From contig CAIUPP010000075.1 in assembly GCA_903901045.1 (NCBI GenBank), positions 1 to 64,000 on the forward strand: a stretch of DNA of 64,000 nt. Direction: 5' to 3'. Both the position numbers and the translations under genes were made by a program. Shown here piece by piece: positions 7,143-61,439 of this stretch (positions within the stretch are counted from its first letter, which is position 1; every line of letters starts with the position of its first letter). This stretch comes from an uncultured Planctomycetota bacterium. Lineage in GTDB: Bacteria; Planctomycetota; Brocadiia; CAIUPP01. The notes below the pieces were generated by a model that saw only the letters and a list, made by a program, of their open reading frames with translations, had not been told where the DNA came from and searched no databases.

Positions 7143-7397
7143 TTAGTAATTGCCTTCGCCATTAGTGTCAAGGCCGGCGTTCGTGTCAAACATGTGCCAG
7201 ACGGCCACGCCGCTGCACTGGCCGAAGCCCGACCAGGCGTTGTACTGGTTCGGAGCGGTGCCGCTTCCATACAACGGCAGGTAGTACTCCGCCACGGTGT
7301 TGCCGCACATGCCGAACTGCATTTGATGCCCCGCCGTCGTTACAGGCGACACGGCGGCTGTTCTCCACCAGATGAGCCGCTGCTGAGGATCGCCCGC
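7143..7397 (-). pseudogene. 3' remnant of a pseudopilin-like (H-X9-D) gene
   Basis: 84 codons aligning with the C-terminal end of the intact pseudopilin gene just upstream: GDPQQRLIWW, then AEYYLPLYG, then VAVWHMFDTNAGLD, compared with [19 protein letters not shown] and [14 protein letters not shown]. An in-frame TGA lies directly before the homology (7398-7400) and there is no prepilin leader or transmembrane segment, so it cannot make an exported protein. The tail sequence differs from the neighbour, so it came from another paralogue and is not a fresh tandem copy. The downstream hydrolase gene starts 166 bp later. Confidence 0.72.
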
Positions 7398-8730: not shown

Positions 8731-8815
8731 GATACCTCTCCTCTAAGACAATGATTCTTAAAGAAACCACACCTCTGCACGCGTCCGCACTCACTTGAAG
8801 TTTCTCTCCTCCCAA

Positions 8816-17590: not shown

Positions 17591-17713
17591 TTCGAGGTGC
17601 GTTGGGGGTCTTGGCTTGCGGCGGGTCCCGCAGCCAAAACGGCTCCCATTTGGCATTGTCGCGACCGGTAATTGGGCAACGCAGTTTCTGTCACTTTTAG
17701 AAAGGACACGGTC

Positions 17714-32669: not shown

Positions 32670-32691
32670 CAGGTCACTCCCCACTTGCCGG

Positions 32692-35865: not shown

Positions 35866-38331
35866 ATGAAAGAGGTTTCCCGGCTCGATCACGCCGGCGT
35901 TTGCTGGTTCCTGAACAGCCCTGTGACGGAGGAGGGCGTGCGACGCCATGCACGCGCCTTCCGCGAAGCGGGCTTCTCCTCCTTGCTTCCCATCCCCATC
36001 TGCAACGGCACGGCCAACCGGTCCAAGAGCCAATTCCGCAATTCCGGCATGCAATGCGATTACCTCTCGGAGGAGTTCTTCGGTCACTATGCGCGCGTCG
36101 TACGCGCCTGCCATGACGCGGAGATGCCGATATGGGTCTGGGATGACGATTTCTGCCCCGCCTGCTGGGCCGGCGGCGCCATGGTCAAGACGAGGCCGGA
36201 GCTTCGCGGGAAGATCGTCTATCGCATCGGGCAGTCCGATCCGCCGCCTCCGAACGCGGTGCGCACCCTTTGCGAGCGGGATGGCCGGCAATACGTCCTG
36301 GCGCTGGAGGCCGCGGACTCCTCCCGCATCGACGTGTTCCATCCCGACGCGGGCGCCCACTTCGTGAAGCTGAACTACGAGACGTACTTCACGCACTTCG
36401 GCGAGTTCTTCGGCAGGACCCTCGTCGGCTTCTTCACCGACGAGCCAGGAATCCCGGGATGCCTCGGCGGACTCTATCGCCTTCGCGACAGCTTGGCGCC
36501 CATGCCGCTGCCCTGGACGGACGACCTGCCCGCATTGTGGAAGGGGCTGCACGGCGGCGACCTGGTGGAGCTTCTGCCCTCTCTGTTCATGGACTCGGGC
36601 GATTCCCCCGCGGCCCGGCAGGCGCGGGAGGGGTTCGGCGCGCTTATCAACCGGCTCTGGGTCGAGCGCTGGATGTCTCCCTGCCGCGACTGGTGCCGCA
36701 GCCATGGCGTGACCTACACCGGCCACCTCAACAACGACGACTACGTGGAGGCTCGGCTGAAGTCCTCCGGCAACCTGCCGAATTCTCTGCGCTTCTTCGA
36801 CATGCCGGGGATCGACGTCGTCGTGCACCACATCCTCCCCGACAAGGAGCGCCAGCCGAGCGAAGGGCTCTCCGTCTGGGACGTCAACCGATTCAACAGC
36901 GATTTCCCGCGCTTCGCCTCGTCGGCGGCCCGGGCCGCATCCCGAGGCAGGGCCATGTGCGAACTGGGCGACGCGTATGGCTGGGGCTGCGACCTCGAAC
37001 TGCGCAAGTGGCTTCTGGACTACAACATCGCGCGCGGCATCGACTTCATCTTCTGGGGGTCCGCCGTCTGCTCCCTGGCAGGCAGCGACGTCATGGCGAC
37101 CTCCGGCAACATGGGACCGGAGCAGCCCTACTGGCCGTTCTGGAACGAGCTCAACCGCTGCTATTCAAACGTGCTGGGAATGCTCTGCAAGGGAAGTCGC
37201 TGCGCCCGCGCGGCCATCTTCTACCCCGCCGGCGGCTACATGGGGGGCGGCAGCCAACTCAATGAGCGGCTGGACGCGCTGGCCGCTTTCCTGCGCGGGA
37301 ATGGCGTGGATTTCGACTACGTGGAGAGCTTGTCGGACTCCGGCGCGCCATACGAACAGATATTCGTTCCCGCCGGCTCGCCGCTCTCGGCGGATGAGGT
37401 GGCATGGCTGGAGAAGAAAGCCGGGCAGTGCAAAGTGTACGCGCCATCCGACCGTCCTCTGCGCGGGGCTACCCCCTATTCCGCGCCTGCGTGCGCGTTC
37501 CTCCCCGGGAAGTTCATGGAATTCGCGGCGGCCCAGTATGGCGACCTGGGCAAGTTCCTGAAGCCCGACCTGAGCGTGGCGGGTCTCCACGAAATGTGCC
37601 TCCACAAACGCGAAGTCGCGCCGGGGGAGTATCTGCTCTTCGTGTTCAACGAGAGCGCAACGGGCTCGCTTGAATTCACGCTGCCTTCCCATCGGGAGCG
37701 CTTCGCTTGCGCGCCCGAAGAGGACGTTTTCGCGCCGCTCGACGCGGAGAACCTGTCGCTGGCACCGGGGGAGTCGATTCTGCTCTTCCTCGGCAAACGT
37801 GAAACGATTGCGTCCGTCCTCGGCAAGAAGGTGCAGCCTCTGCGCCGGCCGCAGAGAACCATGGAAGTCGATCCCTCGCAATGCGCCTTCGTCTCGGCGA
37901 TGGAGTGCTTCTGGGATGGAAAGAACTTCGAGCGCCGCGCCCTGACCGAGAGGCAGTACAAAGAACGCGGGCGCGGTTTCTCCGGCGAGGTCGTTCGCCG
38001 GCTCACCCTGCCGCTCGGGGAACGCGGCGACATGGCGCTCTCGATGCCGCAATTCCGCGGCGCTGCGGCCATCCGCGTCAACGGCGCTGCGGCCGGGAGC
38101 GTCATTGGGCCGCCGAAGAAGCTCTTCATTCCCAAAGCGCTCCTGCGCGAGGGGGAGAATCAGATCGAAATGACGCTCTGCAACACGCTGGCCAACCACG
38201 TGCGCTCGCCGGAGTTCCGGCAGCGCGCCGGGGCCTTGGACGTGCGGCCCAACGTCTATTTTGAAATGACGGCGGCGGCTGACCGCCGGACCATCGAAAC
38301 CGATTCTGTGTCCAACGAGGGACGGACATGA
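35866..38331 (+). CDS. GH106-like alpha-L-rhamnosidase-type protein, not exported
   Basis: 821 residues. The barrel strand IWVWDDDFCPACWAGG (about 89-104) corresponds to the YDEDxWPSGxAGG block of GH106-like enzymes, and VGFFTDEPG (Asp192-Glu193) to their catalytic FTDE segment. YTGHLNNDD, GIDVVVHHILP and MCELGDAYGWG follow in order. The second half has a flavodoxin/glutaminase-like region (RAAIFYPAGGYMGGG) and a galactose-binding-like C-terminus (about 690-810). There is no signal peptide, unusual for GH106, so it should act on imported oligosaccharides. It ends in an ATGA overlap with the next gene. Rhamnose-releasing activity is inferred from family resemblance. Confidence 0.7.
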   Translation: MKEVSRLDHAGVCWFLNSPVTEEGVRRHARAFREAGFSSLLPIPICNGTANRSKSQFRNSGMQCDYLSEEFFGHYARVVRACHDAEMPIWVWDDDFCPACWAGGAMVKTRPELRGKIVYRIGQSDPPPPNAVRTLCERDGRQYVLALEAADSSRIDVFHPDAGAHFVKLNYETYFTHFGEFFGRTLVGFFTDEPGIPGCLGGLYRLRDSLAPMPLPWTDDLPALWKGLHGGDLVELLPSLFMDSGDSPAARQAREGFGALINRLWVERWMSPCRDWCRSHGVTYTGHLNNDDYVEARLKSSGNLPNSLRFFDMPGIDVVVHHILPDKERQPSEGLSVWDVNRFNSDFPRFASSAARAASRGRAMCELGDAYGWGCDLELRKWLLDYNIARGIDFIFWGSAVCSLAGSDVMATSGNMGPEQPYWPFWNELNRCYSNVLGMLCKGSRCARAAIFYPAGGYMGGGSQLNERLDALAAFLRGNGVDFDYVESLSDSGAPYEQIFVPAGSPLSADEVAWLEKKAGQCKVYAPSDRPLRGATPYSAPACAFLPGKFMEFAAAQYGDLGKFLKPDLSVAGLHEMCLHKREVAPGEYLLFVFNESATGSLEFTLPSHRERFACAPEEDVFAPLDAENLSLAPGESILLFLGKRETIASVLGKKVQPLRRPQRTMEVDPSQCAFVSAMECFWDGKNFERRALTERQYKERGRGFSGEVVRRLTLPLGERGDMALSMPQFRGAAAIRVNGAAAGSVIGPPKKLFIPKALLREGENQIEMTLCNTLANHVRSPEFRQRAGALDVRPNVYFEMTAAADRRTIETDSVSNEGRT

Positions 38332-41091: not shown

Positions 41092-42225
41092 ATGACGTTC
41101 ACGGAGCTTAACCGCCGGGTGGTCCGGGGCGAATCGGGCGGGAAGATCATTTGGCAGCCGCGCATCGGCGCGTGGCTTGCGGACAAGCTTTTCGAGAAGG
41201 AGGAGCTTCCCGGCCGGTTCAAGGGAATGGCCCGCCTGTCCGAAATCTACCGCGAATTGAATTGTTCCGCGCGTCCCTACGAATTCGGCGCGTCGTATGT
41301 CCGCAAGGAGCACCCCTCCGTGCGCCTTGAACGGAAAACGCTCTCCTCTTCCGATGAGGAGATTTCATTCCATACCCCGGTCGGCGTCCAGACAATCCTC
41401 TGGCGCAGGACGGCCACCTCGCGCCGGAAGATCATGGCCAAGCATGAGATCGAGACCGAGAAGGACTTGCGCGTCGCCGCCTGGCGGGAGAACCACTGCT
41501 CCTGGGAGTGGTCGCAGACCACCTACGACCGGACCATGCAGGAATGGAACGGCCTGGGCTTGCCGGCATTTACCGTGACCCCCCTCGACGCCGGCTACTA
41601 CGGCCCGCGGGTGAATATCCAGGAGCTCTTCACCAGCCGGATGGGGGTCGAGAATACCATTTATGCCCTCGCCGACTGGCCCGCCGCGGTGGATGAATTC
41701 TGCGAGGCGTCCAACAACAGCTTCGGAAGGTTGATCGACGTCATCAATGCGTCGCCCATTGACATGATCTGCTTCGGGGACAACCACCACGCCTCCACCA
41801 TGCCCCCGGCTCTGTTCAGGAAATACGTCATGCCGGAATACCAGCGGCGGTGCGAGAAACTCCACCGCGCCGGGAAGTTCGTCTGCTCCCACTGGGATGG
41901 CGACGTCAAGCCGCTGCTGCCTCTTGCCCGGGAGCTCGGGCTCGACGGCATCGAGGCGATCACGCCGCAGCCGCAGGGCGATGTGACGCTCGAAGAGACC
42001 CGGGCGGCGCTCGGCGACAAGCTGTTCCTTTTCGACGGCATCCCGGCCATTCTTTTCGACGACATGTATCCGGTTTCAATGCTCCGGGAGTGCGCGCAGA
42101 AGGTGATCGACCTCTTCGCCCCGAACCTCGTCCTCGGCATTTCGGACGAGATCTCCGCGCACGGAAATATCGAGCGCATCTGCGTGGTGTCGGAGATCGT
42201 CGATCGCTATAACTCCGGCCGGTAG
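41092..42225 (+). CDS. URO-D-superfamily protein, HxDG type, divergent
   Basis: 377 residues. The N-terminal 130 residues (TFTELNRRVVRGESGGKIIWQPRIG) are unlike the other copies, but the barrel core is recognisable: ICFGDNHHASTMPPALFRKYVMPEYQR (about 227-252, in two strands), KFVCSHWDGDVKPLL (His267, Asp269) and GIEAITPQPQGDVTLEE. Two adjacent His residues (NHHAS) add a possible second metal site. It starts 20 bp after the preceding gene with only a weak GAG Shine-Dalgarno. The substrate is unknown. Confidence 0.75.
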   Translation: MTFTELNRRVVRGESGGKIIWQPRIGAWLADKLFEKEELPGRFKGMARLSEIYRELNCSARPYEFGASYVRKEHPSVRLERKTLSSSDEEISFHTPVGVQTILWRRTATSRRKIMAKHEIETEKDLRVAAWRENHCSWEWSQTTYDRTMQEWNGLGLPAFTVTPLDAGYYGPRVNIQELFTSRMGVENTIYALADWPAAVDEFCEASNNSFGRLIDVINASPIDMICFGDNHHASTMPPALFRKYVMPEYQRRCEKLHRAGKFVCSHWDGDVKPLLPLARELGLDGIEAITPQPQGDVTLEETRAALGDKLFLFDGIPAILFDDMYPVSMLRECAQKVIDLFAPNLVLGISDEISAHGNIERICVVSEIVDRYNSGR

Positions 42226-42397: not shown

Positions 42398-43390
42398 ATG
42401 AACAGTCTTCAGCGTTTTAAGGCGGCGCTCAACTTTCAGCCGGTGGACCGCCTGCCGGTGATCGAGTGGGCGCCCTGGTGGGACAAGACCATCGAGCGAT
42501 GGCGGACGGAAGGTCTGCCCGTGCTGGAGTCCTACGAAGAATACTTCGGCCTGGACCCGCTCTATTGGTGCCGCTTCTCGGAGAAGAAACCCGGCATACC
42601 GACGCCCGCCTATCATGGCGCAGCTCTGGTGCGCAACGAAGCGGATTACGACAAGCTCCGCCGCGACTTCCTCTACACGGAGCCGGCCGATCAGGAGAAT
42701 CTGGCCACGCTGAAAAAACTCAAGGGGCGCACCGCAAAGGGAGAGGTGCTCATCTCGGTGGCCGTCGCCGGCTTCTTCTACTGGCCACGGGCGCTTTTCG
42801 GCATCGAGCCGCATTTCTTCGCCTTCTACGACCATGCGCCGCTCATGCACCGCATGAACGCGGACCAGATGCGCTATATCGAGAAGACGCTCGATTACGT
42901 CCTCGGCATGACCGACGTCGCCATGATCGTCCTCAATGAGGACCTCTCGTACAACCACGGGCCGATGATCTCCAAGGACCTCTTCGACGAGTTCATGGCC
43001 CCCTACTATCGCGAGTTCACGGCGATGTTCCGGAAGCGCGGGCTCCCGCTCATCGTCGACACGGATGGGCTGATGGAGGAGATGATCCCCTGGTTCACGG
43101 AGGTGGGGATGGACGGCTGCCTGCCCATCGAGCGGCAAGCCGCCAACGATATCCCCCGGATGCGGCGCAACCATCCCGCCTGGCGCATGGTGGGGGGATT
43201 CGACAAGATGGTGATGCACAAGGGGGAGGCGGCCATGCGGCGGGAATTCGAGCGATTGCTCCCGGTGATGAAGGGAGGCGGGTACGTCCTCGGCGTGGAC
43301 CACCAGACGCCGCCGGAGGTCTCGCTCAACGACTATCGTCTCTATCTGAAGCTGTTCAACGAGTATGCCCGCCGCGCCGCGACGCGCTGA
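42398..43390 (+). CDS. URO-D-fold protein, DxDG type
   Basis: 330 residues with AGGAGG before ATG. It opens SLQRFKAALNFQPVDRLPVIEW; LNEDLSYNHGPMISKDLFDEFM (about 179-200, two strands) and LIVDTDGLMEEM (Asp221, Asp223) match the gene at 11385 rather than its two upstream neighbours, so the plus and minus URO-D clusters share a subfamily. The 172-bp gap before it is larger than elsewhere in this operon; I see no clear promoter there. It is the last gene before the dispersed repeat. Confidence 0.8.
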   Translation: MNSLQRFKAALNFQPVDRLPVIEWAPWWDKTIERWRTEGLPVLESYEEYFGLDPLYWCRFSEKKPGIPTPAYHGAALVRNEADYDKLRRDFLYTEPADQENLATLKKLKGRTAKGEVLISVAVAGFFYWPRALFGIEPHFFAFYDHAPLMHRMNADQMRYIEKTLDYVLGMTDVAMIVLNEDLSYNHGPMISKDLFDEFMAPYYREFTAMFRKRGLPLIVDTDGLMEEMIPWFTEVGMDGCLPIERQAANDIPRMRRNHPAWRMVGGFDKMVMHKGEAAMRREFERLLPVMKGGGYVLGVDHQTPPEVSLNDYRLYLKLFNEYARRAATR

Positions 43391-46690: not shown

Positions 46691-47365
46691 CTACTTTGCC
46701 GGAGCGCCGGCAGTCTCGACCACGAGGGTCGGGTCGTCGAAATACGCGAAGAATCCCTCTCCCTTGCTGTTCAATGCGCGCACGCGAAAGGTGGCGATCT
46801 TCCGCCCGGACGCAAGGTCGTCGTTGAGCATGCGCGTGACGTCCACGCTGATCAGCGTGTTGGCGAGGTTCGTTCCCCCCTTGACCAGCAGGAGGTTGCC
46901 CGGCACGCCCAGCGCGGGGTTGTTCCACTCCGTGCCGATATGCAGCCAGTAATCCCCCTTCGCATATTCGTCGTGCGGATATTTCACGCCGAATTCGATA
47001 TGCTCCAGAATGATGTCCGTGGGGAATGGGTCGGTGGCGCGCCGGTTCTGGCTGCAATTGACGTCGGAGTCCTTCGTAATCCTGATTTCGGCCTTCGATA
47101 CGGACTTGCCCAGCGCCTCGACGTTAAAGTGCATGATGCTGCGCGGAATGTACACGTCCCTGGATCCGGTGGCGACCAGGAGGTTCTTCTTCAACGGCAC
47201 GTAGGCATTCGGACCTTCCGGATCGTTGCAGTTCGCCGCCGGACAGCAGCAGGAGTCCGGCGCGAGGGTGACCGTATCGGCCCGGGCGCGCGGCAACAAC
47301 GCGCCGGACAAGAGGAGCAACGCCACCATCGCGGGCCAACTTGTCTTTCGTGTCCATCCGCTCAT
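46691..47365 (-). CDS. Secreted DNRLRE/CBM96-like protein
   Basis: 224 residues, AGGAGG before ATG, signal peptide (SWPAMVALLLLSGALL, cleavage near ARA-DTV). The mature part begins TVTLAPDSCCCPAANCNDPEG and continues with IPRSIMHFNVEALGKSVSKAEI and LISVDVTRMLNDDLASGRK, the pattern of DNRLRE-type beta-sandwiches, some of which bind alginate or other uronates (CBM96). The cysteine cluster CCC...C near the mature N-terminus is unusual and could be disulphide-linked. It sits between the CBM protein and the GHL6-like enzyme of module B. Confidence 0.62.
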   Translation of the reverse strand: MSGWTRKTSWPAMVALLLLSGALLPRARADTVTLAPDSCCCPAANCNDPEGPNAYVPLKKNLLVATGSRDVYIPRSIMHFNVEALGKSVSKAEIRITKDSDVNCSQNRRATDPFPTDIILEHIEFGVKYPHDEYAKGDYWLHIGTEWNNPALGVPGNLLLVKGGTNLANTLISVDVTRMLNDDLASGRKIATFRVRALNSKGEGFFAYFDDPTLVVETAGAPAK

Positions 47366-47396: not shown

Positions 47397-48425
47397 CTAC
47401 TGCTTCAATGGCATCAAGTAGAGATCGTCAAAGCAGACCTCGCCGGCTCCGGCAAAAAGCAACTCCGCCGAGACGGTGATGTAGTCGATATCCCCCGGGA
47501 TGATGTTCAACTGCTCCTCGCACTTCATCCAGTCGTGCGGCGCGGTGGGGAAGATGGCCGAGAGGCAGGGCAGGACGCTCCCGTCCTTGTAATGGACATC
47601 CGCCGTGATGGAAGCGCGGCCCCCCTTCTGCTCCGAGCGGCACCATCCGCCGATGAGGATCGCATCCATCGAAGCGACGGGCTTCACCACGCAGCGCGCG
47701 CCGTAGAGGCGGTACGGCTTGTCCGCCTTCAGCCGCAAGCCGGCCTTGCCGGAATGGGCTGCGGCGGCATCCAAGACAAAACCTTCTCCATAGGGATGCC
47801 ACTTGGAGGCCTCTTCAAACCCGCCCGCGGTCAGGAGGTTCTCCCCCCTCGTCATCGGTTTCCGGCCCATGCCGATGTAAACATCATCGAACCAGGTCGA
47901 ACCGGTCTGCCCGTCGGTCAGGCAGTAGATCATCACGTAATCGACCTGGGAGTCCCCCACGTTCACGCGGTTGCCCACGAACTGCCAGTCCAGCGGCGGC
48001 TGCTTGAAGGTCGCCGTGTTCTCAAGCACCCGGCCCCCCTTCAAGACCACCTGCAGGCAGAACCGAGGACAGGCCGCAGGGCCCTCCGTCGGCTTGACCT
48101 TCGCCCACCCGCCGAACTCGACCACGGGAGCTTCCGTAGAGCCCGGAGCGCCGGTGGCCGCTCCGCAGGTCTTGGTCTTGTCGGTCGCGTCCAGACGGAC
48201 GCTCTGCTTTCCGCCATGAAAGACCGTCGTGTCCACGACCCACTTGTCGGCCAGATAATAATTCCAGGTGTCCTTGGCCGGCTGCCCGAGCAGTTGCTCG
48301 CAGCCGGGGTCCGGCACGGCGTTCTTGAACACGGGCGCGGTGATCGGCTCGCCCGGGACGACTTCGGCACTCGCGGACATGGCGCCCAGGAGGAGGACGC
48401 CGAAGAGAGCCAGCATTCTGTTCAT
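47397..48425 (-). CDS. Secreted tandem CBM4/9-like protein
   Basis: 342 residues; AAGGA 8 bp before ATG, signal peptide MLALFGVLLLGAMSASA. Two beta-sandwich modules (about 22-180 and 185-340), each closing with a WFDDVYIG or CFDDLYLM strand typical of CBM4/9-like domains. The first half aligns with residues 20-190 of the giant hydrolase at 3212: VVPGEPITAPVFKNAVPDPG versus VVPGEAITKFSPKNLLADPG, and GSTWFDDVYIG versus GSVWFDDAFIG. The gene directly upstream is that hydrolase's paralogue lacking this very domain, so the fused protein is split here into two genes, with the CBM duplicated. Confidence 0.76.
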   Translation of the reverse strand: MNRMLALFGVLLLGAMSASAEVVPGEPITAPVFKNAVPDPGCEQLLGQPAKDTWNYYLADKWVVDTTVFHGGKQSVRLDATDKTKTCGAATGAPGSTEAPVVEFGGWAKVKPTEGPAACPRFCLQVVLKGGRVLENTATFKQPPLDWQFVGNRVNVGDSQVDYVMIYCLTDGQTGSTWFDDVYIGMGRKPMTRGENLLTAGGFEEASKWHPYGEGFVLDAAAAHSGKAGLRLKADKPYRLYGARCVVKPVASMDAILIGGWCRSEQKGGRASITADVHYKDGSVLPCLSAIFPTAPHDWMKCEEQLNIIPGDIDYITVSAELLFAGAGEVCFDDLYLMPLKQ

Positions 48426-48453
48426 ACCGATGTTCCTTCTGAAAGTGGTGCCG

Positions 48454-51400
48454 TCATTTGTCGCTCGGTGCGATGGTGACTTCCATCGGCCCATCCAGCT
48501 TGCAGGTGAACTTCAACAGCCCCTTCTTGTCTGAAGCGACCTTCGCCACCTCGCCGGCTTTGACGAGATAGACCGTCGCGGGAGCGATTGCGAACTCCCC
48601 GCTGCCCGCGGTGATCTCCACGCTCCCCTTGCCGTTGAGTCTCAAAGCGACGCCTTTCGCATCGTACTGGCGGAATACCACGTTGACCGGCATGGCGGCT
48701 TTCAGCCGCACCGGTACTTTCGCCACCACGGCAGATTCCTTGTCGGCCAGAGTCACCTCGGTCCGCACACCGTTCCCATCCACGGTGGTCAGGTAATCGG
48801 CGGGAATCTCCCATCCCTGCGCATCATAACGGTAAGCGCAATGGAGAGCTGAGTCGCCCGCCCAGCCGTAGACTCCGGGGTTGGCGGTGATGATCCGCTC
48901 CTCCCCTTTTACGCAGTTGGAGTGGATTTCCTGGAAGGTGATCGGGAACTCCCGCGATACCATCGGCGGACGCGTGAAGAAGTCCTTGCCGGAGTTCGGA
49001 TAGTCCCCGTAATAGAATACCAGGCTTCCCCACTTCAGCTTGTTGAGCGTATCGTAGTAGAACTCCTTCTCGTTCGTGAAGTTGTAGGCGTTGGAGAGCG
49101 TCACGACGGTCGGAGCCAGGTGGGTGGTTGCGCCTTCCACCAGTTCCTTGTCATGAATGATGTACGTCTCCTTGCCGATCGTGCGCGTAATGACGGAGTT
49201 GTTGGCGACGACCTGGCCTCCCTTGTCGCGCATCTTGCGGGAGAACGCCACGAGCGCATCCTGCGAAAGCAGCAGCACCGACCCGACCTTGCGCGTGAGC
49301 GTCCTGGCAGCCGGGTCAATCTCCGCCGTGTGCCCGTCCCATCGGTCGTACGTGTACTCGCCGCCATAGGCGGTCATGAACCCATCCATGAAAACGCCAT
49401 TGCACCCCAACTCGTCCATCATCACGTCCACGCTTCGCATCAACTCGCGCCCGAAGCTGTTGTCCAGCGTGGGATAGAGCGCGTACCAGCGCCAGCCTTG
49501 CGCCTTCCGCTCATCGCTGAAATACGCTCCCTCCTGCCCCTCGTAGTAAATCGCCTGCTTGCCGTCCGCGGCGATCACCCGCGAATCCGGGAAGGTCTCG
49601 GTCGGTTTGTTGTTGGAATACAGGCTGTGCGCAACATGGAACATCACTTTCAAATCGGGGCAGAGCTTATGAATCGCCGCGACCTGATCCTTCGTGCGCG
49701 CCATTTCCTTCGGGTATTTGAGGAACTCGATCCCTTCCAGCGAGACCTGGGGATCGTCGACCGGGTGGTCCATGGAGGTGCAATTGAGGTACTTGATTTT
49801 GCGAATGTCGCTGTATTCCCTGGTCGGAACTCCGAACCGGCCGGAGAAGCGGTCATGATACAACGCCATGCCGCCGGCCACCTTGCCGTTGCGCCCCTCG
49901 TCATTGCGCACCTGGTTGATGAAGTCGTAATAGTCCCCTGAACTGTTCAGGTAGAGCGACCACTCCAGCGTGTACGAAGCCCCCTTGTCCAGCGCGAATT
50001 GCGTGCTGTACAGGCTGGAACGGGCGGGGTCGAAGTCCCCCTTGGACTGGACGATGAACACGTCATCCAGCGCAACCAGGCCGAGCCCCAGGCCGGGCTT
50101 CTGAAGGAAGAGCGTCGGGTCCGACTGAAGGACCGCGTCACTCTTCGCGTTCCGGCTCTCCGCGCCGGCCAGCCAGGCGGCGGCGATCCCGCGCCCTTCC
50201 GTGACGATACTGTCTTTGAAGAGAATGCCGATGGCCTCCGGCGTGTTGTTCGTCACCTTGTCCTGCACGTTGACGTGCGTGGGGAGGAGGCGGATGGTGC
50301 GCTCAATCGCGTAGAACTTGCCCGAAGCGGACACGACGTACGTCTTGTCGTCCACCTTGCGCGTCGTCACTTTCCAGTCCTTCTCGCACTTCCCCGCCGC
50401 AGGCGCCGCAAGGCCCAGGAGGTTGAAGTCACCCTTCGGCCAGGAGAAGGAGGATTCCACCGGATAAGTCTCGCCGGCGACCCCGATCTGGAAACCGCCC
50501 GACGCCCCCAGTTCAAACCGGTAAGGGACCGGGTCGGCGGGTTTGGGCAGGAGCGCCACGCTCTTCTCGGAGGGAGCGGGCACTTTGGCCGGCGCATAGG
50601 GGAGGGCGATCGAAACGGCCGCTTCATTCACAGCGCGGCCCGCGGCATCCCTGACGACAGCCGCAATCCGGTACTTTCCGGCCGCCAGATCCTTGAGCGG
50701 GAACGTGAACTCGTAACGCCCCGTGTCCGGCATCTTCTGAATCGACTCGGTCTGGGCGGGCGCCTGGCCCGGCAGACCGAGCTCCAGAGAGGCCTTCTGC
50801 CCGGCTTGAAGAGGCAGGACGCCGCCGAAGTCCGAGTCGACCGTGACGGTTCCGTTGTCATAATGGCAGTAAGGCGTCAGCCGAATCTTGCCGATCCATG
50901 AGGCATCCTTGCCGTGGCGCGCGGCGCCTTCGCGGTAGGCGGCAACGACCTCCTCCGTCGTCAGCGCGCGATGGTAGAGAGCCACGTCATCCATCAACCC
51001 GTAGAACGATTGCGCCGCCGCCGAGATGCTGAAGGGCCTTGTCGCCGGCGCGGAATCGAGCAGGTCGAACTGCACGTCCATGATGCCGTCAATGTACAAG
51101 CTGGCGGTGTTGCCCCGGCGGCTCAGGACCACGTAGTAATACGTGTTGTTCTCGACGTGGCGGCGCGAGGTGGCCGTGCGCAACTTGCCCCCGTCGGCGC
51201 AGTGACGGTAGCTGACGACCGTGGCGTCGCCGTCAATGCGCAGCATGTAGCCGGAGCCGGGGTACGAATCCCCTCCGTCGAAGATGACCCAATTGGTCGT
51301 CCCGTCGGGAAAGCCGGGAGCCGCCAACTTCACCCAGGCGGTAATCGCGCGGTCGCCGGGCAGATTGAATTCAGGCTTGCTCCCCACGTCAACATACTCG

Positions 51401-51609
51401 CCCGGCTTGAAGCTCAGCGCCGTTCCGGCATCGGTCTTCACCCACTTGGCGCCATGGATCGTCCCGTCGTTCCCGTTGCCGCTATGGTCCTTGAGGACTG
51501 CGCCGGCTCCTTCTTCAAACGTGTAGTGTGCGAGCAGGCCATCCCCCGCCGCAAGGGCGGGGATAGCGCTTAGCGCCAACGCGCTCATCAGGAACAGGAT
51601 TTTACTCAT
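48454..51609 (-). CDS. Secreted LamG-TIM-barrel hydrolase of the uncharacterised DRWDGH-type family
   Basis: 1051 residues with signal peptide (LFLMSALALSAIPALA). LamG at about 23-225, a beta region 360-560, a barrel 575-905 and a C-terminal beta domain. It is highly similar to residues 225-1254 of the protein at 3212, including GVFMDGF (about Asp742), AYGGEYTYDRWDGHTAEIDP and VANNSVITRTIGKETYI. The conserved Glu is in LVEGATTHLAP. The start overlaps the preceding stop by 8 bp (ATGAGTAA) and GAGGAG precedes it inside that gene. It is likely a glycosidase paired with the preceding paralogue for a two-step attack on the same polymer (inference). Confidence 0.74.
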   Translation of the reverse strand: MSKILFLMSALALSAIPALAAGDGLLAHYTFEEGAGAVLKDHSGNGNDGTIHGAKWVKTDAGTALSFKPGEYVDVGSKPEFNLPGDRAITAWVKLAAPGFPDGTTNWVIFDGGDSYPGSGYMLRIDGDATVVSYRHCADGGKLRTATSRRHVENNTYYYVVLSRRGNTASLYIDGIMDVQFDLLDSAPATRPFSISAAAQSFYGLMDDVALYHRALTTEEVVAAYREGAARHGKDASWIGKIRLTPYCHYDNGTVTVDSDFGGVLPLQAGQKASLELGLPGQAPAQTESIQKMPDTGRYEFTFPLKDLAAGKYRIAAVVRDAAGRAVNEAAVSIALPYAPAKVPAPSEKSVALLPKPADPVPYRFELGASGGFQIGVAGETYPVESSFSWPKGDFNLLGLAAPAAGKCEKDWKVTTRKVDDKTYVVSASGKFYAIERTIRLLPTHVNVQDKVTNNTPEAIGILFKDSIVTEGRGIAAAWLAGAESRNAKSDAVLQSDPTLFLQKPGLGLGLVALDDVFIVQSKGDFDPARSSLYSTQFALDKGASYTLEWSLYLNSSGDYYDFINQVRNDEGRNGKVAGGMALYHDRFSGRFGVPTREYSDIRKIKYLNCTSMDHPVDDPQVSLEGIEFLKYPKEMARTKDQVAAIHKLCPDLKVMFHVAHSLYSNNKPTETFPDSRVIAADGKQAIYYEGQEGAYFSDERKAQGWRWYALYPTLDNSFGRELMRSVDVMMDELGCNGVFMDGFMTAYGGEYTYDRWDGHTAEIDPAARTLTRKVGSVLLLSQDALVAFSRKMRDKGGQVVANNSVITRTIGKETYIIHDKELVEGATTHLAPTVVTLSNAYNFTNEKEFYYDTLNKLKWGSLVFYYGDYPNSGKDFFTRPPMVSREFPITFQEIHSNCVKGEERIITANPGVYGWAGDSALHCAYRYDAQGWEIPADYLTTVDGNGVRTEVTLADKESAVVAKVPVRLKAAMPVNVVFRQYDAKGVALRLNGKGSVEITAGSGEFAIAPATVYLVKAGEVAKVASDKKGLLKFTCKLDGPMEVTIAPSDK

Positions 51610-54103
51610 AGGGATTCTCCTCGATGACGGCCACCCCCCCTGCGGGGAGCGCGCCCAGGTCCACGGTCCACGTGTCGCCCGTCCTGGCCATCGGCACGGG
51701 GTTCTTCACGCGCCGGCCGTCGGAATTCCACACCAGCACCTCCGGCTTGCCCGCCTGTTTCCAAACATATTTCCCGGCCACGCAGGTGACGGTCCTTTCC
51801 TTCCCCTCGATCCATCCCGCATGCAGACCCACCGGGGTGAGAGGGAAGGAGTGCGTCAGGATGCCGTACGCCTCGTATTCGGTCGGCCCCAGCCCGAGAT
51901 TGGAAGCGTAGTAATAGGTCAACGCGCCCAGCCTGAGCCGCTGATTGATCTGGTCCACCAGCGTGGAGGCCTTCCCCATCTCCTCCTTGGTGAAGTTCGT
52001 CCACATGTTCGACAGGCCGATGGGGGAATAGAGGTGCGTGCTCGGGACGTTGTTGGTGCCTTCGACGAAGCTCATGACGGGCAGCGTGAGCATCTCTTCG
52101 GAGGCGGCGGACTCGTTGCAGACCACGATGCCACCCTTATCGAAGATCTTCTTCACCATCTCCGCCTGCGCGGGCCCGTGGAGAATCGGCACGTTGTTCC
52201 TGGTTCGAATGAGCGCGTACGTCTTCGGGTCGATATCGGCGGAATGGCCGTCCCACCGGTCATAGGAGACCACACTGGGCAGCGTGAATATGTCGAAATA
52301 GATCCCCTTGAACCCGCATTCGTCCATGAGGAAATCCACGTCCGCCATGAGCTTCTTGTGATAGGAGTTGTCCAGCGCCGCGTAGCCGTAGATGTATTGA
52401 TACGTCGGCTCGACGCAGCCGTAGCCGGAGACGACGTAGGAGCCGTCCGCGTTCTTAAGGAGGCTGTCGGCGTTCTCGTGCTTGCTCCATTGCGCCGGGT
52501 CCTTCGGCACTCTGAAGAACGTGATTTCGCGGGAAGCCAGGAGCCAGAACCCCGGCAGCACCGAGGTCACATTGTTCACGGCAGCCAGGGCGAGCTTCTT
52601 ATATCGGACCCGGTCGTAGGAAACGGGGTCCGGCTCGCTGCAATAATAGTCCCACCACGGCTCGCCGGCCCCGAACCGCCAGCACTGCGGCGCGATCTTC
52701 GAGCGGATTTCATCCGGCTTGGCCTGCGCCCACCAGGCGTTGTAACGGAAATCCTCCCAGGGGCCGATGAGGGTGAAGTTCAGCCCGTCATCCGCCCGGA
52801 TGCGATTGATGAAGCTGAAATAGTCCGGGTCGCTCGAAAGATACATTCTCCAGCGCAGCGTGTAGGACTTCTTCGGCGCCAATGCAAGCTGGTTCGTGCC
52901 GAACGCCACGACGGCCGGGTAGTTCTCCACCCAGAACTGGTTGCGCAGCACGGTGTCCTTGGCATAGAGGCCGATCTGCAACTCCTTGGAGTTGATGAAC
53001 AGCGTCGAGTTGCACGGCCCCACCATGCTGGCCACTTCGAGCGCGCCGCCGTTGGGCATTCCGCCGATCCAGAGGACATCCTGAGGCTGCGCCAGCCCCA
53101 CGGTGTTCATCGCCATCACCGGCAGAATCTGGTCGGTCAAGTTCTCGATGGTGTCGAAGAAATCGAGCCGGTCCTCCGTGACGCGTATTTCGCGCCGGAT
53201 GCTGTGTTGCGCGCCGCGCGCGGAAATCGTGATCGAATCTCCCTTCACGACCGCCTCCGGCTTCCACCCCTTCTGGCAACCCGTCAGCGCGCCGCCCAAC
53301 AGGTTGATCCCGGCGTTCGGCCAGGTGAAGGAGCTCTCCATGACAAGAGAGGCCGCCCCGCGCGAGATCTTCAGGCCGCCGAACTCATTGACGGCGACGG
53401 TGGCGTTCTTCACCGTCAACGACTGGACGGGCTTGAACCCCTCCGCCGTTATCCCCAGCTTGCGGCTGGAGGCCACGCGCGGCTTCTGGAAATACCCCAC
53501 TTCCAGCGGATCGGTGACCAGAACGATCTCTTCGGGCTTCGTGGCCCCGAAGTCTTTATACTTGGTGATGTTCTGCAGTTTGAGGACGTTCGGACGGTCC
53601 GTGAAGAGCAGGTCCTCCACGCGAAGGATGAACCAGTACTTCTCGCGCGTCTGCACCGGCTCGGCCAGTTCAAACGTCCAGGCATCGAAGGAGGGGCTGA
53701 AGAACGTGTTCACGGCGTTGTCGAACATGCAGTGGCCGGTTTTGTAGACCTTGTCATTGTACACGTCCGGCCGGTTGATGAGGCGTATGCGCGCCCAGTC
53801 GTCCACGGCCCGGACGGGACGGTTGTTCACCCAGATCGCCAGGTAGGGACTCCAGCCGTTCAGGCGGTCGTTCTGCAGGCGCGTGCGAAGAGCGATGACG
53901 GTCTCCACACCTCCGCGCGCCGGAACCGCCGGGAGCTGGAACTCGACGGACTCGCCCGAGATGATCCGCACCGGTTTGTCGGCCTTCCAGACCAGGTCCA
54001 TCTTGCCCGCCTCGCGCATCGGCTTGTCGGCCGGCTCGGCGCGAACGATGGGGCAGATCGCGACTGCAATCAATACGAGCGCCCAATGCGCACAATGTCT
54101 CAT
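51602..54103 (-). CDS. Secreted TIM-barrel hydrolase of the uncharacterised DRWDGH-type family
   Basis: 833 residues from the ATG with GGAGGA 7 bp upstream; a start at 54139 is possible but adds no leader. Signal peptide 1-22. Beta domains 25-240 and 240-420, barrel about 440-770, C-terminal beta cap. GIYFDIF (Asp604), VVSYDRWDGHSADIDP (613-626) and FVEGTNNVPSTHL (Glu681) align with the proteins at 3212, 48454 and 21957, and the final GLHAGWIEGKERTVTC matches them too. It has no LamG. It overlaps the downstream paralogue by 8 bp and lies 90 bp after the pseudopilin-like gene, so module B pairs two family members. Confidence 0.72.
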   Translation of the reverse strand: MRHCAHWALVLIAVAICPIVRAEPADKPMREAGKMDLVWKADKPVRIISGESVEFQLPAVPARGGVETVIALRTRLQNDRLNGWSPYLAIWVNNRPVRAVDDWARIRLINRPDVYNDKVYKTGHCMFDNAVNTFFSPSFDAWTFELAEPVQTREKYWFILRVEDLLFTDRPNVLKLQNITKYKDFGATKPEEIVLVTDPLEVGYFQKPRVASSRKLGITAEGFKPVQSLTVKNATVAVNEFGGLKISRGAASLVMESSFTWPNAGINLLGGALTGCQKGWKPEAVVKGDSITISARGAQHSIRREIRVTEDRLDFFDTIENLTDQILPVMAMNTVGLAQPQDVLWIGGMPNGGALEVASMVGPCNSTLFINSKELQIGLYAKDTVLRNQFWVENYPAVVAFGTNQLALAPKKSYTLRWRMYLSSDPDYFSFINRIRADDGLNFTLIGPWEDFRYNAWWAQAKPDEIRSKIAPQCWRFGAGEPWWDYYCSEPDPVSYDRVRYKKLALAAVNNVTSVLPGFWLLASREITFFRVPKDPAQWSKHENADSLLKNADGSYVVSGYGCVEPTYQYIYGYAALDNSYHKKLMADVDFLMDECGFKGIYFDIFTLPSVVSYDRWDGHSADIDPKTYALIRTRNNVPILHGPAQAEMVKKIFDKGGIVVCNESAASEEMLTLPVMSFVEGTNNVPSTHLYSPIGLSNMWTNFTKEEMGKASTLVDQINQRLRLGALTYYYASNLGLGPTEYEAYGILTHSFPLTPVGLHAGWIEGKERTVTCVAGKYVWKQAGKPEVLVWNSDGRRVKNPVPMARTGDTWTVDLGALPAGGVAVIEENPYE

Positions 54104-54193
54104 CGCGGGTCCTCCGAAGACGAAGAGGGGAACAAGCATGCCCCGCCCTTACCCAAGCGGGGCATGCATTTCCGGCAGGAGCGTCGATCCGCC

Positions 54194-55555
54194 TTAGAAA
54201 TTATCTATCCCGTTGCCTACGTCGAACATATGCCAGAGGTCCCCGCCGCACTTGAGATTCTGGCCGCCGGTGCCATCCAGCTTGGTCCACCGGGTAATGC
54301 CGTTGAACGCCGAAGTGCGCGCGATGGTCTCATCCTCGGCCCAGCCGAGACGGGCTTCAATCGCGCTCCCCAACGGGCACTGCCACCACATGATCTGTCC
54401 CTGCGGATCGCCAAACCACTTCGCGCTCCAGTCGCCGTAGAGCACATTGTAGCCGTCCCGGTGAGCGTAAAGCCCCATGCCGGGCAGCGGGATGGTCACG
54501 GCGGCGTTGCTCGTCGGATTATCGACGTCGTTCGGCTGGGAGAAGGAGTCGCTGACCAGCGAGCGTCCCCCCAGAAGTTTCTGCGTCTTGAACGGCGCGC
54601 AGCCCGCCGACGTGCGCGTTCCCGGCTTGGTGTCCTTCATGAGCACTTCCGTAATCAGCTCCGATCCGGTGCTCCAGCCGTTTGAGATCGCGCAGGGCAC
54701 GTCGCGATAGTTGTAGTTCGACTGCGTCACGAGGAACTCGCCCGGGCAGTCCGCCCACAAGGTCCGGTGAGTTGTAGCGTACGCGTCAACCCAGGTGGAA
54801 AGAGTGGACAGGACGGGATGCGAAAGCGAGAACGCGTCGAACCCGCCTGCCTTCTTCAACGCCCCCAGGGTGTGCAGGCTGGAGGTCTGTCCGCCCACTT
54901 TCCCGGAAACATCGGCGTCGCTCGGCATGTTGTCGCCGGCGGAAGGACAGAAGTAGCTGCGCGCGTCGCCCAGATACCCGCCGGCCAGCAAGTAGCCCAG
55001 CCCGACAGGCGCCTGAGCGAGGCTGCGATCCGCCGGGAGCCCCATGACGTAGGCATCGACGCCCGGGGTGGTCGGCACCGTCGTAGCCACAGGGGTCGGA
55101 CCCCACGCGCCACAGTAGATGGTGCGGTAGCGAAGAAGCGGGAGCCGGTTGCCGAACGAATCGGTGATCACCGTCCCACCCCACATCAGCACGCCTTGCA
55201 CGGGCCCCGTCCCCGTCCGAATCGTCTGGTTGAGCTTGGTATCGACCACCAGGCCCGCGTCGGTCGGGAACTGTCCGAGGTAGTAAGGCCCGGTCGCCAG
55301 ATTGCCCCATGCCGCCGGGAAGTACGCCCCGCCCGCAGCCGCCCACGTCGGAAGATACCCGGAGTAGTCGCTGCAGTAGCTTTCCAATCCCCTGCTGAAC
55401 TGGCTCAGGTTGTTCAGGCACGCTGTCCGGCGCGCCTTTTCACGCGCTGCCGCAAGAGCCGGCAGGAGCATTCCGGCCAGTATTGCAATGATTGCGATGA
55501 CCACTAGCAATTCAATCAACGTAAACGCCGACAGCCACGTCCTGAATTTCATCAT
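54194..55555 (-). CDS. Pseudopilin-like protein, prepilin N-terminus and H-X9-D motif (module B)
   Basis: 453 residues. The prepilin leader and core [18 protein letters not shown] are identical to those of the modules A and C proteins, again with Ala at -1 and Glu at +5, followed by [18 protein letters not shown]. The globular part (about 60-440) differs widely from its paralogues except near the end, where [17 protein letters not shown] holds the H-X9-D motif, and FDVGNGID closes the protein. The variable middle suggests ligand specificity lies there. Tandem ATGs (55555 and 55552) leave a one-residue ambiguity. It is 92 bp after the LacI gene and 90 bp before the first hydrolase. Confidence 0.88.
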
Positions 55556-55647
55556 GGCACACCTCCTTATCTAATACCCAGCCTGGACCTGACCCCGCTA
55601 TTAAGCCCGCCCCTTCACTCGCCGAGGCGATTTCCTCCTAATTAAAA

Positions 55648-56727
55648 CTAGACCCGGATAGCATCCGCAGCAACCACCGGCGACGGTTCGCGCCGCTTGG
55701 CGCCCGTGGACTCGCGGACAACCAAATCAGGCAGCAGCGTCACGGCGCGCGGCTCACCGGTCTCTTCCCGCAACCGTCTCCTCAGCATACTCCAGAGCAG
55801 TTCCACCATCTCATCCACCGGCCCGCGAACGCTGGTCAACGCCGGACGGGCGAAGCGCGCGTGGTCGGTGTCGTCATACCCGCTCACGGCCACATCCTCA
55901 GGAACCCGCAGCCCCCGGTTGAACAGACAGTTCATAGCCGCCAGGGCAATCACGTCGTTCGCCGCCAGGACCATGTCCACCTTCAGGCCCCCCGCCAGCG
56001 CGCGGTCGAACGCCGCATAGGCGGCCTGATAGAGGGGATAGCCATGCGAGAGGCTATCGGGGTAGCCTACCTTGGCCACAAGTTCCATTCCCCACTGCTG
56101 CAGCGTCCTCTCCAGAGAACGGAATTTCGCGGAGTTTGGCAGGTCGTTCAACTCCGGCGCATACCCCAGGACGCACACCCGCCGCCGTCCGCACTCGTGA
56201 GCGTGATCCACCAGCAGGCGCACCCCGTGCGCCTGGTCCAGCATGACGACATCCGCCACGGAGGGGTGCGGGTCGTTGAAAGACACCACGGGAATCCCGA
56301 GCCCCTTGAGTTGGACGCACAGTTGTCTTGTTTCCTCCTCGGGAGCGTTGGGAAACAACATCATCCCCCGCCAATGCTGCTCCAGGGCGCTGTTCAGGAG
56401 CATGCCACTTTCGGAACGCTGGTAGTTCACACGCACCAGCCGCATGCCGTCCGCCCTGGCGAGCGCTTCGATCCGGGCCAACGCATCTTCCATGGGCGTC
56501 ATTTCGGCAATGGGGGCCGTGGCGAGAGCGACGATGTTGGTCTGCCCCATCGAGAGGGATCGGGCGTGATGGTTGGGCACATAATTATGGCGCTTGGCCG
56601 CGCGTTCCACCTGCACGCGGATATCCGGGCGCACCCCGCTGAGGTTGCGCAACGCCCGCGACACGGTGCTGGTGGAAACCCCCACCTCCCGGGCCAAGTC
56701 AGTTAGCATGACACGCTTGGTAGCCAT
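55648..56727 (-). CDS. LacI-family transcriptional regulator (module B)
   Basis: 359 residues: HTH DLAREVGVSTSTVSRALRNL (about 10-29), hinge NYVPNHHARSLSMGQTN, and an effector domain ending GYDDTDHARFARPALTSVRG. It is clearly the closest relative of the regulator at 8816 along the whole length, so the modules A and B regulators arose by duplication, and their operators are correspondingly alike. It should repress its own promoter and the seven-gene minus cluster down to 44617, unless internal promoters exist. The gap 56728-56997 holds only its promoter and operators plus a short hairpin at 56875-56896. Confidence 0.93.
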   Translation of the reverse strand: MATKRVMLTDLAREVGVSTSTVSRALRNLSGVRPDIRVQVERAAKRHNYVPNHHARSLSMGQTNIVALATAPIAEMTPMEDALARIEALARADGMRLVRVNYQRSESGMLLNSALEQHWRGMMLFPNAPEEETRQLCVQLKGLGIPVVSFNDPHPSVADVVMLDQAHGVRLLVDHAHECGRRRVCVLGYAPELNDLPNSAKFRSLERTLQQWGMELVAKVGYPDSLSHGYPLYQAAYAAFDRALAGGLKVDMVLAANDVIALAAMNCLFNRGLRVPEDVAVSGYDDTDHARFARPALTSVRGPVDEMVELLWSMLRRRLREETGEPRAVTLLPDLVVRESTGAKRREPSPVVAADAIRV

Positions 56728-58985: not shown

Positions 58986-60260
58986 TCACCTGCCGCGCAC
59001 GGAGTTTACATCAATCCCGTTGGCCATGTCGAATCCGTGCCAGATATCCGGAAAGTGCGAGGCATCCGAGCTGAACGAGGGCTCCGTCGCGTCCGCCGGC
59101 AGGTTCGAGCAGAACCCGCCCAGCGTGCATCCGTTGGCGTCCACACCGACGTAGCTGACCCAGACCTGGGGAGACGTATCCCACATGACCTTCTGCTGAG
59201 GGTCTCCGAACCACTTGGCCGTCGCATCGCCATACAGCACGTTGTACCCGTCGCGGTGGCCGAACCAGCCGTCGCCGGGCATATTGGCAATAGCTGCCAC
59301 CCACGGGTTGTTCGCGCGCTCGTAGCCGTCCACCACAATCGCGCGCCCCGCAAGCAGCTTGCGCGTCTTGAAGAAGGGCAGTTGCGGATCGTGCCAGACC
59401 CCCGGCTTCGTCCACGGCACCTGAAGCTTGTGCCCCTTGAAGAACGCGCTGGCGGGATTGGCGTCCATCACCGCCACTTCCTGAACGTAGACCCCCGCGC
59501 CGCGATAGGCGTACGTGGACTCCAGGCGGCGGGAGCTGGCGAACCAGTATGTGGACAACAGCCCCACCGTGGCCCAGTTGCCGTGCGTCAGGATCCGCGA
59601 ATCGGTGCCCCCCGCCTGCTTCACTTCCGCCAGCGTCGTGGCGCCCGAGCGCAGCAGCCCCGAGCCGGCCCACATCTCCTTATTGTAGTAGTTGGCGAAC
59701 AGGTCGTCCGGCATGTTCGTTGAGGTGGGGCAGAAGAAGACGCCCAGGTCCGCCAGGTACCCGCCCGAGGCCAGGAAGCCCAGCCCCTGCGGCGCCATGG
59801 CGAGTTTGCCGACCCCATAAACCGCCGGCCCGGAGGTGAACTGCTCACCCTGCGCAATCACCCGCGGCAGAAAGCGGCTCATGCCGGTCCATGAATTCGG
59901 CGCACCGCCGGCGCCGACCGCCCACGCGTGGACCTGATCATTCGGCGTCGTCCCCTTCGGGTCCTTGTACACTCCGGCATCCTGCGTGGCGCCGTTGCTG
60001 ATCCCCGACTGCCAGGGACCGAAGTTATTCGCCATGTCCCACGTCACGTTGAACGGCATGTAGTCCGAATAATCACTGGTGTAGCTTTCCAGAGCGAGGC
60101 TCATTTGTTTCAGGTTGTTGATGCACGCCGTGCGCCGCGCCTTCTCCCGCGCCGCCGCCAAAGCCGGCAGCAGCATCCCGGCCAGAATAGCGATGATCGC
60201 TATCACCACGAGCAGCTCGATCAAAGTGAACGCAGACAGCCATGTTCGTAAGGACTTCAT
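58986..60260 (-). CDS. Pseudopilin-like protein, prepilin N-terminus and H-X9-D motif (module C)
   Basis: 424 residues from the ATG with GGAGGAG 4-10 bp upstream; a start at 60320 would displace the prepilin leader. The first 50 residues ([18 protein letters not shown] and [18 protein letters not shown]) match modules A and B almost exactly. Near the end [17 protein letters not shown] carries H-X9-D followed by Ala, and [10 protein letters not shown] is the closing block. The middle is poorly conserved. It lies 115 bp after its LacI gene and 117 bp before the amidohydrolase. Confidence 0.88.
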
Positions 60261-60374
60261 CGGCTCCTCCTTTATCAGATCGCTCCGAAACCCGATCCCG
60301 TTACCCCCGCGCAGGCGCACCGGTCCCGCGCCAGGCCCACATCGGACGCCCTTGTCGGCTCTTCCTTTCCTGCT

Positions 60375-61439
60375 CTAACGTTCCGTGGATTGACGCACGA
60401 CCAACGACGGCAGCACCAGCATCGACTGCGGCTCTCCGCCCTCGCCCGCAAGTCGGCGTTTGAGCAGGTTCCAGCCCAACTCAACCATTTCATCGATCGC
60501 CAGCCGGACGGTGGTCAGCGACGGGCGCACATAGCGCGACCATTCCGCGTCGTCAAACCCCGTCACCGCCACGTCCTGGGGGACGCGCAGCCCGCGATCG
60601 ATCAGGCAGTTGATCGCCGCCACGGCCATCGTGTCGTTAGCGGCCATCAACAGGTCCGGACGCAGCGCGCGCGCCTGAGGCGTGTTCATCGCATCGCAGG
60701 CGGCGACGTAAAGTTCCGGCCCCAGCTCAACGCTCTTGGCCACTCCGATCAGGCCAGCCAGTTCCATGCCGCGCCTTTGCAGTTCAATTTCAAGGAAGCA
60801 GTACTTCGGGGAGTTGGCCAGAACGGCGATCTCCTCTGTCGCGGCCATCACGGCAACGGTCCGGACCCCGCGTTGCGCCGCGTGGTCGAGGATCAGGCGG
60901 ACGCCGTGCGCCCGGTCGAACGTCACGTAATCCAGCCCCGCCCAGTTCGGCGGCGAGAGCACGACGCTGGGAATGCCGTACTTGGCCAGCGTCGCGATGA
61001 GCTTCCGGGTGACGTCCTCCGGCGCATTCGGAAAAATGAGCGCGCCGTCCCAATGCTGCTCCAGGGCGATCTCGACGACCTTGTCGGATTCCCCCGCTTC
61101 GTAGCGGAAATGAATGAGGCGGCGGTTCTCCGCATGGATCAGCGACTCGATCCGGGCCACCCCGGTGAGGTGAGGCGCCATCACCGTCACAGGCGGCGTG
61201 ACAAGGCCGATGAGGTTCGTGCGCCCAAGCGCCAGAGACCTCGCCTGCAGATTGGGCACATAGTTGAGCTTCCTGGCGGCGCGCAAGACGCGCGTCCGCA
61301 CGTCGGGGCTGACTCCGTACTCATCTCGAACGGCGCGGGAGACGGTGCTCAACGAAACGCCCGCCTCCTTCGCGACGCCGTCAAGGGTTATGCGCTCAGC
61401 CCCGCGCTTTAGGGAGCGTTCTCTACCCGCACTGGCCAT
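60375..61439 (-). CDS. LacI-family transcriptional regulator (module C)
   Basis: 354 residues. HTH LDGVAKEAGVSLSTVSRAVR (about 19-38), hinge NYVPNLQARSLALGRTN, effector domain ending GFDDAEWSRYVRPSLTTVR. It is more distant from the modules A and B regulators than they are from each other, and its operator differs in one half-site accordingly. A candidate operator at 61477-61490 lies between its start and the divergent LamG-DUF6067 gene, so it probably controls both directions. Confidence 0.92.
   Translation of the reverse strand: MASAGRERSLKRGAERITLDGVAKEAGVSLSTVSRAVRDEYGVSPDVRTRVLRAARKLNYVPNLQARSLALGRTNLIGLVTPPVTVMAPHLTGVARIESLIHAENRRLIHFRYEAGESDKVVEIALEQHWDGALIFPNAPEDVTRKLIATLAKYGIPSVVLSPPNWAGLDYVTFDRAHGVRLILDHAAQRGVRTVAVMAATEEIAVLANSPKYCFLEIELQRRGMELAGLIGVAKSVELGPELYVAACDAMNTPQARALRPDLLMAANDTMAVAAINCLIDRGLRVPQDVAVTGFDDAEWSRYVRPSLTTVRLAIDEMVELGWNLLKRRLAGEGGEPQSMLVLPSLVVRQSTER

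Follow-up and report, generated by a model that had tools for sequence, protein, structure and literature searches.

Putative secreted glycosidases of an unnamed family, distantly related to DUF6259 and probably within the alpha-galactosidase superfamily, in an uncultured planctomycetotal bacterium

Described relatives and searches against named families

In the glycoside hydrolase families GH27 and GH31 the nucleophile is an Asp that closes barrel strand 4, and the proton donor closes strand 6 (PMC1249566). The galactosaminidase of F. plautii (FpGalNase), which is of GH36 type, likewise uses an Asp at strand 4, D463, as nucleophile (PMC11762096). A further relative is DUF6259 (PF19773), whose members consist of a beta domain followed by a barrel; the literature searched yielded nothing on the activity of DUF6259, no paper naming it, and nothing relevant on new supersandwich families. 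The proteins compared here with these systems, P0001 to P0004, are encoded in a 64,000-nucleotide stretch of DNA from an uncultured member of the Planctomycetota, which was analysed as a whole and is referred to as the window.

No match to the catalytic part of P0001-P0004 was obtained in Pfam or NCBIfam, and 46 members of their family scanned singly yielded no catalytic-family match in these databases either. The accessory LamG domain was the only one recognised in both sets, and matches to the NCBIfam model TafC were dismissed as they covered LamG alone. The GH36 model (Melibiase, PF02065) matched the family neither among the 46 members nor in the whole genome, the GH31 model (PF01055) and the WxDMNE-type nucleophile motif of GH31 are absent from the family, and the models of GH129 (PF11308) and GHL10 (PF02638) gave no HMM match and profile comparison probabilities of 0.6 and 7%, respectively. 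Whole-genome scans with the DUF6259, GH36, GH129, GHL10, and GH31 models did not report the family loci. Searches of PDB sequences with three family profiles found no significant relative; the best hit, 9f9v (E 0.056-0.072), was rejected as too weak, with the supersandwich region lying outside the match. This structure and the hypothetical glycosidases GHL6, GHL10, and GHL15 share with the family a generic DG(V/I)(F/Y)xD pattern at strand 4. The preliminary description of this DNA had been unable to place the proteins in a named CAZy family; in the scans, 0 of 46 members matched a characterised glycoside hydrolase family in Pfam or NCBIfam. The family is real and is unnamed in Pfam, NCBIfam, and the PDB, although the machinery at its core is of a type already known.

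Family members and their gene surroundings

P0003 (48454-51609, minus strand; 1051 aa) comprises a signal peptide, a LamG-like lectin domain (Laminin_G_3/concanavalin-A-like; aa 71-221, 50947-51399, minus strand; Pfam E 7.3e-18), a beta-supersandwich, a (beta/alpha)8 barrel, and C-terminal beta domains. P0004 (51602-54139, minus strand; 845 aa) has no LamG domain, and its alternative ATG at 54103, the end coordinate given in the preliminary description, is as good a start as that at 54139. P0001 (3212-7270, minus strand) carries LamG and an extra N-terminal carbohydrate-binding-like domain. Its true start is probably the GTG at 6976 (VKRFLVTLGFF..), which fits a signal peptide better than the unconvincing ATG at 7270. 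P0002 (21957-24599, plus strand; 880 aa) represents a subfamily of its own. All four reading frames are open and show a coding-type third-position GC content (0.82-0.87) that their antisense partners lack; the window is GC-rich and its long antisense ORFs are mostly spurious. Since the N-termini of all four proteins resemble signal peptides on direct reading, the proteins are probably exported.

P0003 and P0001 are 74% identical over 1033 aa (BLASTP, E 0), and the pairs P0003-P0004, P0003-P0002, and P0002-P0004 share 25-29% identity over 571-896 columns (E 2e-54 to 2e-51), so that the likeness is far above chance. The proteins have in common a strand-4 motif (GVFMDGF in P0001 and P0003, GFYFDLF in P0002, GIYFDIF in P0004), a DRWDGH motif (DQWDNR in P0002), a Glu before TH(L/F), a DYYDFIN motif (DYFSFIN in P0004), and IHxxx(V/I)KGxER. 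BLASTP and motif reading thus bear out the earlier view of four homologous proteins with common motifs. All four are real, and the genome (4.77 Mb in 154 contigs) has more of them, a profile search having detected 14 members: those in the window, two downstream on the same contig just past the window (C75:70945-73374 and C75:73460-75559), and eight on other contigs. One locus of the same genome, L057:2385-8219, encodes a family member of 1945 aa in which two Ig-like (Big_7) domains accompany four LamG domains.

When 85,000 species genomes were scanned, 49 outside loci emerged in metagenome-assembled genomes from Planctomycetota, Lentisphaerota, Armatimonadota (including Zipacnadia), Hydrogenedentota, Verrucomicrobiota, and WS1; one locus each in Thermoplasmata and Shapirobacteria may represent mis-binned contigs. 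These 49 were retrieved by GxFxD and DYYDFIN patterns, whereas the 14 copies of the own genome were found by profile and not by motif. The family was present in 3 of the 39 nearest relatives (own genome included) and in at least 2 of the 246 genomes sampled from the phylum, and its distribution is therefore patchy. Judging from RpoB, the host genome would belong to the Planctomycetota (58-62% to planctomycete genomes against 44-53% to the other lineages, along the main stretches of the alignment). A tree of 64 members resolved the window proteins into three deep subfamilies (P0001 with P0003; P0002; P0004), and the 14 own-genome copies were scattered across most of the tree.

The genes of P0004 and P0003 share an 8-base overlap and belong to a run that starts with a LacI-family regulator (55648-56727, minus strand) and a DUF1559/N_methyl pseudopilin-like gene directly upstream of P0004 (54194-55555, minus strand). 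P0003 is followed by P0007 (47397-48494, minus strand), a secreted protein whose gene overlaps the 3' end of P0003 and which is a probable carbohydrate-binding partner, by an ORF with a weak CBM96-like match below the cut-off (46691-47365), and, at the end of the operon, by P0006 (44617-46662, minus strand), a putative glycosidase resembling GH42-trimerisation, GHL10, and GHL6 domains. A phmmer comparison showed P0007 to be a homolog of the N-terminal domain of P0001 (E 6e-51). The binding-like domain is hence encoded by a separate gene (47397-48494) at one locus and fused to P0001 at the other, forming a fusion/fission pair. The presence of a P0007-like domain within P0001, together with the overlap of the P0007 gene with that of P0003, suggests that P0007 works together with P0003.

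P0001 is preceded by the same arrangement, with a DUF1559/N_methyl pseudopilin-like gene directly upstream (7468-8730, minus strand) and a LacI-family regulator (8816-9901, minus strand) that is a close paralog of the one at 55648-56727. Three such pairs occur in the window (7468-9901, 54194-56727, and 58986-61439, all on the minus strand), of which two immediately precede genes of the family, and their LacI regulators are mutually paralogous (E 1e-95 to 1e-173). DUF1559-like genes were also found in 12 of the retrieved loci, frequently adjoining family genes. Other neighbours include GH4, GlcNAc 2-epimerase-like, MGH1/GH63-like, and oligogalacturonate-lyase-like genes; in further genomes, the family has GH42-like, BNR/sialidase-like, and sulfatase genes nearby. 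These surroundings fit the breakdown of a complex polysaccharide and name no substrate; pectin, rhamnogalacturonan, and host glycans were considered and not adopted, as the evidence favours none of them. The GlcNAc 2-epimerase-like gene of the window (13642-14862) has homologs at L008:11098-12348 (E 4e-168) and L009:8769-10040 (E 9e-168), both of which adjoin family genes in two Hydrogenedentota genomes.

Predicted fold and candidate active site

AlphaFold2 models of P0004 (pLDDT 81.4, pTM 0.76) and P0003 (pLDDT 91.2, pTM 0.88) were built with 44-46 homologs. Both consist of a beta-supersandwich, a (beta/alpha)8 barrel, and a C-terminal beta domain, and together with the Foldseek results they confirm the supersandwich and barrel described previously. 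According to model secondary structure and hhalign, the supersandwich of P0003 extends over aa ~364-555 up to the DYYDFIN junction (49945-50520, minus strand). The barrel occupies aa ~580-866 in the model (49012-49872, minus strand), with strands at 580-584, 605-610, 654-660, 738-742, 799-803, 818-821, 836-838, and 863-866. The top Foldseek match in the PDB was for both models the F. plautii galactosaminidase 8x1b (E 8e-15 and 2e-16, probability 1.00), followed by GH31, GH36, and GH97 for both and GH101 for P0004, at 7-12% identity, with modest TM-scores (~0.5 on the target) and an rmsd of 7-13 A. Matches of P0003 to neurotoxin binding domains were discarded as functionally meaningless, stemming from jelly-roll domains of lectin type (query TM ~0.17, rmsd ~27 A).

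In the alignment of 46 sequences, R316, D558, D616, D630, N675, E693, and the DYxxFIN junction (P0004 numbering) are invariant. D616 and E693 are kept in 14 of 14 own-genome copies, and N675 is replaced by Asp in one. The invariance of GxFxD and DYYDFIN among the 49 outside loci is partly ascertained because both served as search patterns; this affects neither D630, N675, and E693 nor the 14 own-genome copies. In P0003 the corresponding codons are those of D742 in GVFMDGF (49384-49386), D758 in DRWDGH (49336-49338), N803 (49201-49203), and E822 in HDKE (49144-49146), all on the minus strand. D742, invariant at the end of strand 4, is the predicted nucleophile; D758 is an invariant Asp of the active-site loop by alignment; N803 is an invariant Asn that terminates strand 5, by alignment and model; and E822, at the end of strand 6, is the predicted acid/base on the grounds of invariance and model. 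A conserved late Glu had already been noted, and an invariant Glu does exist, but the 46-sequence alignment identifies it in P0003 as E822 and not as E825 (LVEG).

In the P0004 and P0003 models, D616/D742 ends strand 612-616/738-742 (barrel strand 4), N675/N803 ends strand 671-675/799-803 (strand 5), and E693/E822 directly follows strand 689-692/818-821 (strand 6). Both confident models thereby place Asp and Glu where barrel strands end C-terminally, on the side of a TIM barrel that carries the active site; this would agree with the pocket that the preliminary description had made a test of its proposal. The same description read the Asp-Glu spacing as that of retaining glycosidases, but sequence spacing alone (80 aa between D742 and E822, 77 aa between D616 and E693) is not diagnostic. 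By hhalign, D616 is aligned with the Asp of the GH36 KxD motif and with that of the GH31 WNDMNEP motif, and P0003 D742 is linked to them via D616. Global hhalign gave no sequence alignment of E693 with the known acid/base of GH36 or GH31, and an acid/base role of E693 is suggested by its invariance and topology.

FpGalNase (PDB 8x1b, 9awt) and GH36, the best structural match, share with the family the supersandwich, the barrel, the C-terminal beta domain, and the strand-4 Asp. FpGalNase is 11% identical to the family, its acid/base is an Asp whereas the presumed one of the family is a Glu, and the Lys of the KxD motif is never Lys in the family and is Tyr or Phe in nearly all members checked, while the Asp is present. 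The GH31 enzymes (GAA, sucrase-isomaltase, sulfoquinovosidase) have the same fold and nucleophile position, with the acid/base expected on strand 6, but are 7-12% identical to the family, which lacks the GH31 signature motif. In profile comparisons the family was linked to GH36 with a probability of 37% (E 3.5e-4) and to GH31 with 20% (E 1e-3), a weak link through the first half of the barrel only, yet far above the controls (<=0.5%). GH97 and GH101 share the supersandwich and barrel according to Foldseek, at 9-11% identity and with no sequence relation detected; GH97 enzymes require Ca and place their catalytic residues differently. The fold of the alpha-galactosidase superfamily is found in both AlphaFold2 models (Foldseek probability 1.00), as is its layout of an Asp on strand 4 and an acid donor on strand 6, the catalytic roles of these residues being predicted.

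Interpretation and further genes of the window

P0001-P0004 are paralogs of one coherent family and quite probably secreted retaining glycosidases of the alpha-galactosidase superfamily (GH27/GH31/GH36-like), acting probably on axial (alpha) bonds, with a mode of cleavage like that of alpha-glucosidases and alpha-galactosidases. Beyond the homology, residue invariance, predicted fold, and nucleophile alignment shown above, we infer that the proteins are hydrolases, that they retain configuration and cut alpha bonds, and that the Glu is the acid/base. The enzymes would hydrolyse axial glycosidic linkages (alpha-D, or beta-L as their equivalent) by double displacement, with the invariant strand-4 Asp (D742 in P0003, D616 in P0004) as nucleophile, the invariant Glu closing strand 6 (E822/E693) as acid/base, and the Asp of WDG(H) and the strand-5 Asn holding the sugar. 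The three subfamilies of the window and others in the genome probably cut different linkages of a complex polysaccharide, and the genes, some with LamG or CBM-like additions, would be under LacI-type control. The chances are about even that these proteins found a multi-subfamily glycoside hydrolase family with its own GxYxD...WDGH...N...E signature on strands 4-6, free of KxD, for bonds unserved by known enzymes.

The named family nearest in sequence is DUF6259, at which the preliminary description had hinted. With a profile built from an alignment of ten DUF6259 proteins, the family was linked to DUF6259 with an hhalign probability of 93-94% (E 4e-7 to 8e-8, 244 columns), whereas the controls (six column shuffles, reversal, unrelated families) reached at most 0.5%. 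The match spans the sandwich-barrel junction (GDWFDAA versus DYFSFIN) up to strand 4 and the motif (C/T)YDxx(H/W)xGH, and it pairs the strand-4 Asp as well as the (W/H)xGH behind it. Counterparts at the junction are GDW(F/Y)DA in DUF6259 and DYYDFIN in the family, and the GVYxD of DUF6259 at strand 4 leads to CYDxxHGH, the counterpart of YDRWDGH. Filing the proteins under DUF6259 as a divergent branch nevertheless appears unlikely. The DUF6259 HMM detected 0 of 46 members even at E<=1, the eight DUF6259 matches of the own genome lie at loci other than those of the family, and identity is about 10%. In DUF6259 the conserved Glu (E537 of L070) is located ~49 aa past the Asp, seemingly on strand 5, whereas that of the family follows after 77-80 aa on strand 6; the family holds an Asn at the strand-5 position, and E537 and E693 do not align. 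Because of this different position of the Glu, the family is best regarded, judging from sequence, as a sister of DUF6259 and not as a member; the hint thus pointed to a distant relative in a separate family.

CAZy adds families faster than Pfam models them, and there is some small chance that the proteins belong to a CAZy family lacking a Pfam or NCBIfam model, such as a recent high-numbered one. No solved structure matches by sequence, however (best E 0.056), and nearly all members are encoded in genomes of uncultured lineages, which makes an earlier characterisation less likely. An inverting mechanism is a rather improbable alternative to retention: D558, D616, and D630 are all invariant, so that another catalytic pair is conceivable, and some GH97 enzymes are inverting, but the strand-4 Asp aligns with the GH36/GH31 nucleophile. 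Non-hydrolytic proteins of glycosidase fold (glycan-binding proteins, transglycosidases, lyases, or pseudoenzymes) would be in keeping with the LamG and CBM-like partners, with the poorly understood LacI/DUF1559 modules, and with the occasional reuse of such folds. This reading is very improbable, as the candidate Asp and Glu are strictly invariant over deep divergence, which is unusual in pseudoenzymes.

As retaining glycosidases, the proteins would add one more family of familiar fold, useful for annotation and enzymology and with a chemistry that is not new in kind. The family bridges the gap from GH31/GH36 to DUF6259, which is unexplained too, and supplies testable catalytic residues. With more than 60 members and no Pfam or NCBIfam catalytic model, it is missed by routine annotation of carbohydrate enzymes in Planctomycetota, Lentisphaerota, and Armatimonadota, and the capacity of these lineages to degrade glycans is therefore under-counted (by 14 genes in one genome).

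The window encodes a second glycosidase-like family without a Pfam match. P0005 (18434-21901, plus strand; 1155 aa) has four copies in the genome, with an invariant Asp856 in VIYMDGW and Glu904 in FSEGC. By profile comparison it is weakly linked to DUF6259 (46%, E 2e-4), and its membership in the P0001-P0004 family was rejected (hhalign 0.2%). The 231-aa ORF upstream of it (17672-18367, plus strand) is a paralog of the P0005 N-terminal domain (E 2e-89). Three large ORFs with no or weak Pfam matches (28143-30458 and 30504-33272, minus strand; 35866-38331, plus strand), the matches being to GHL6/GHL15 and a beta-galactosidase binding domain, likely encode further uncharacterised carbohydrate-active proteins. 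Uroporphyrinogen-decarboxylase-like genes are clustered among the glycosidase genes (10328-11377, 41092-42225, and 42398-43390, plus strand; 11385-12548 and 12578-13645, minus strand). Their products are possibly of the corrinoid methyltransferase type and may remove methyl groups from methylated sugars or from other methyl donors.
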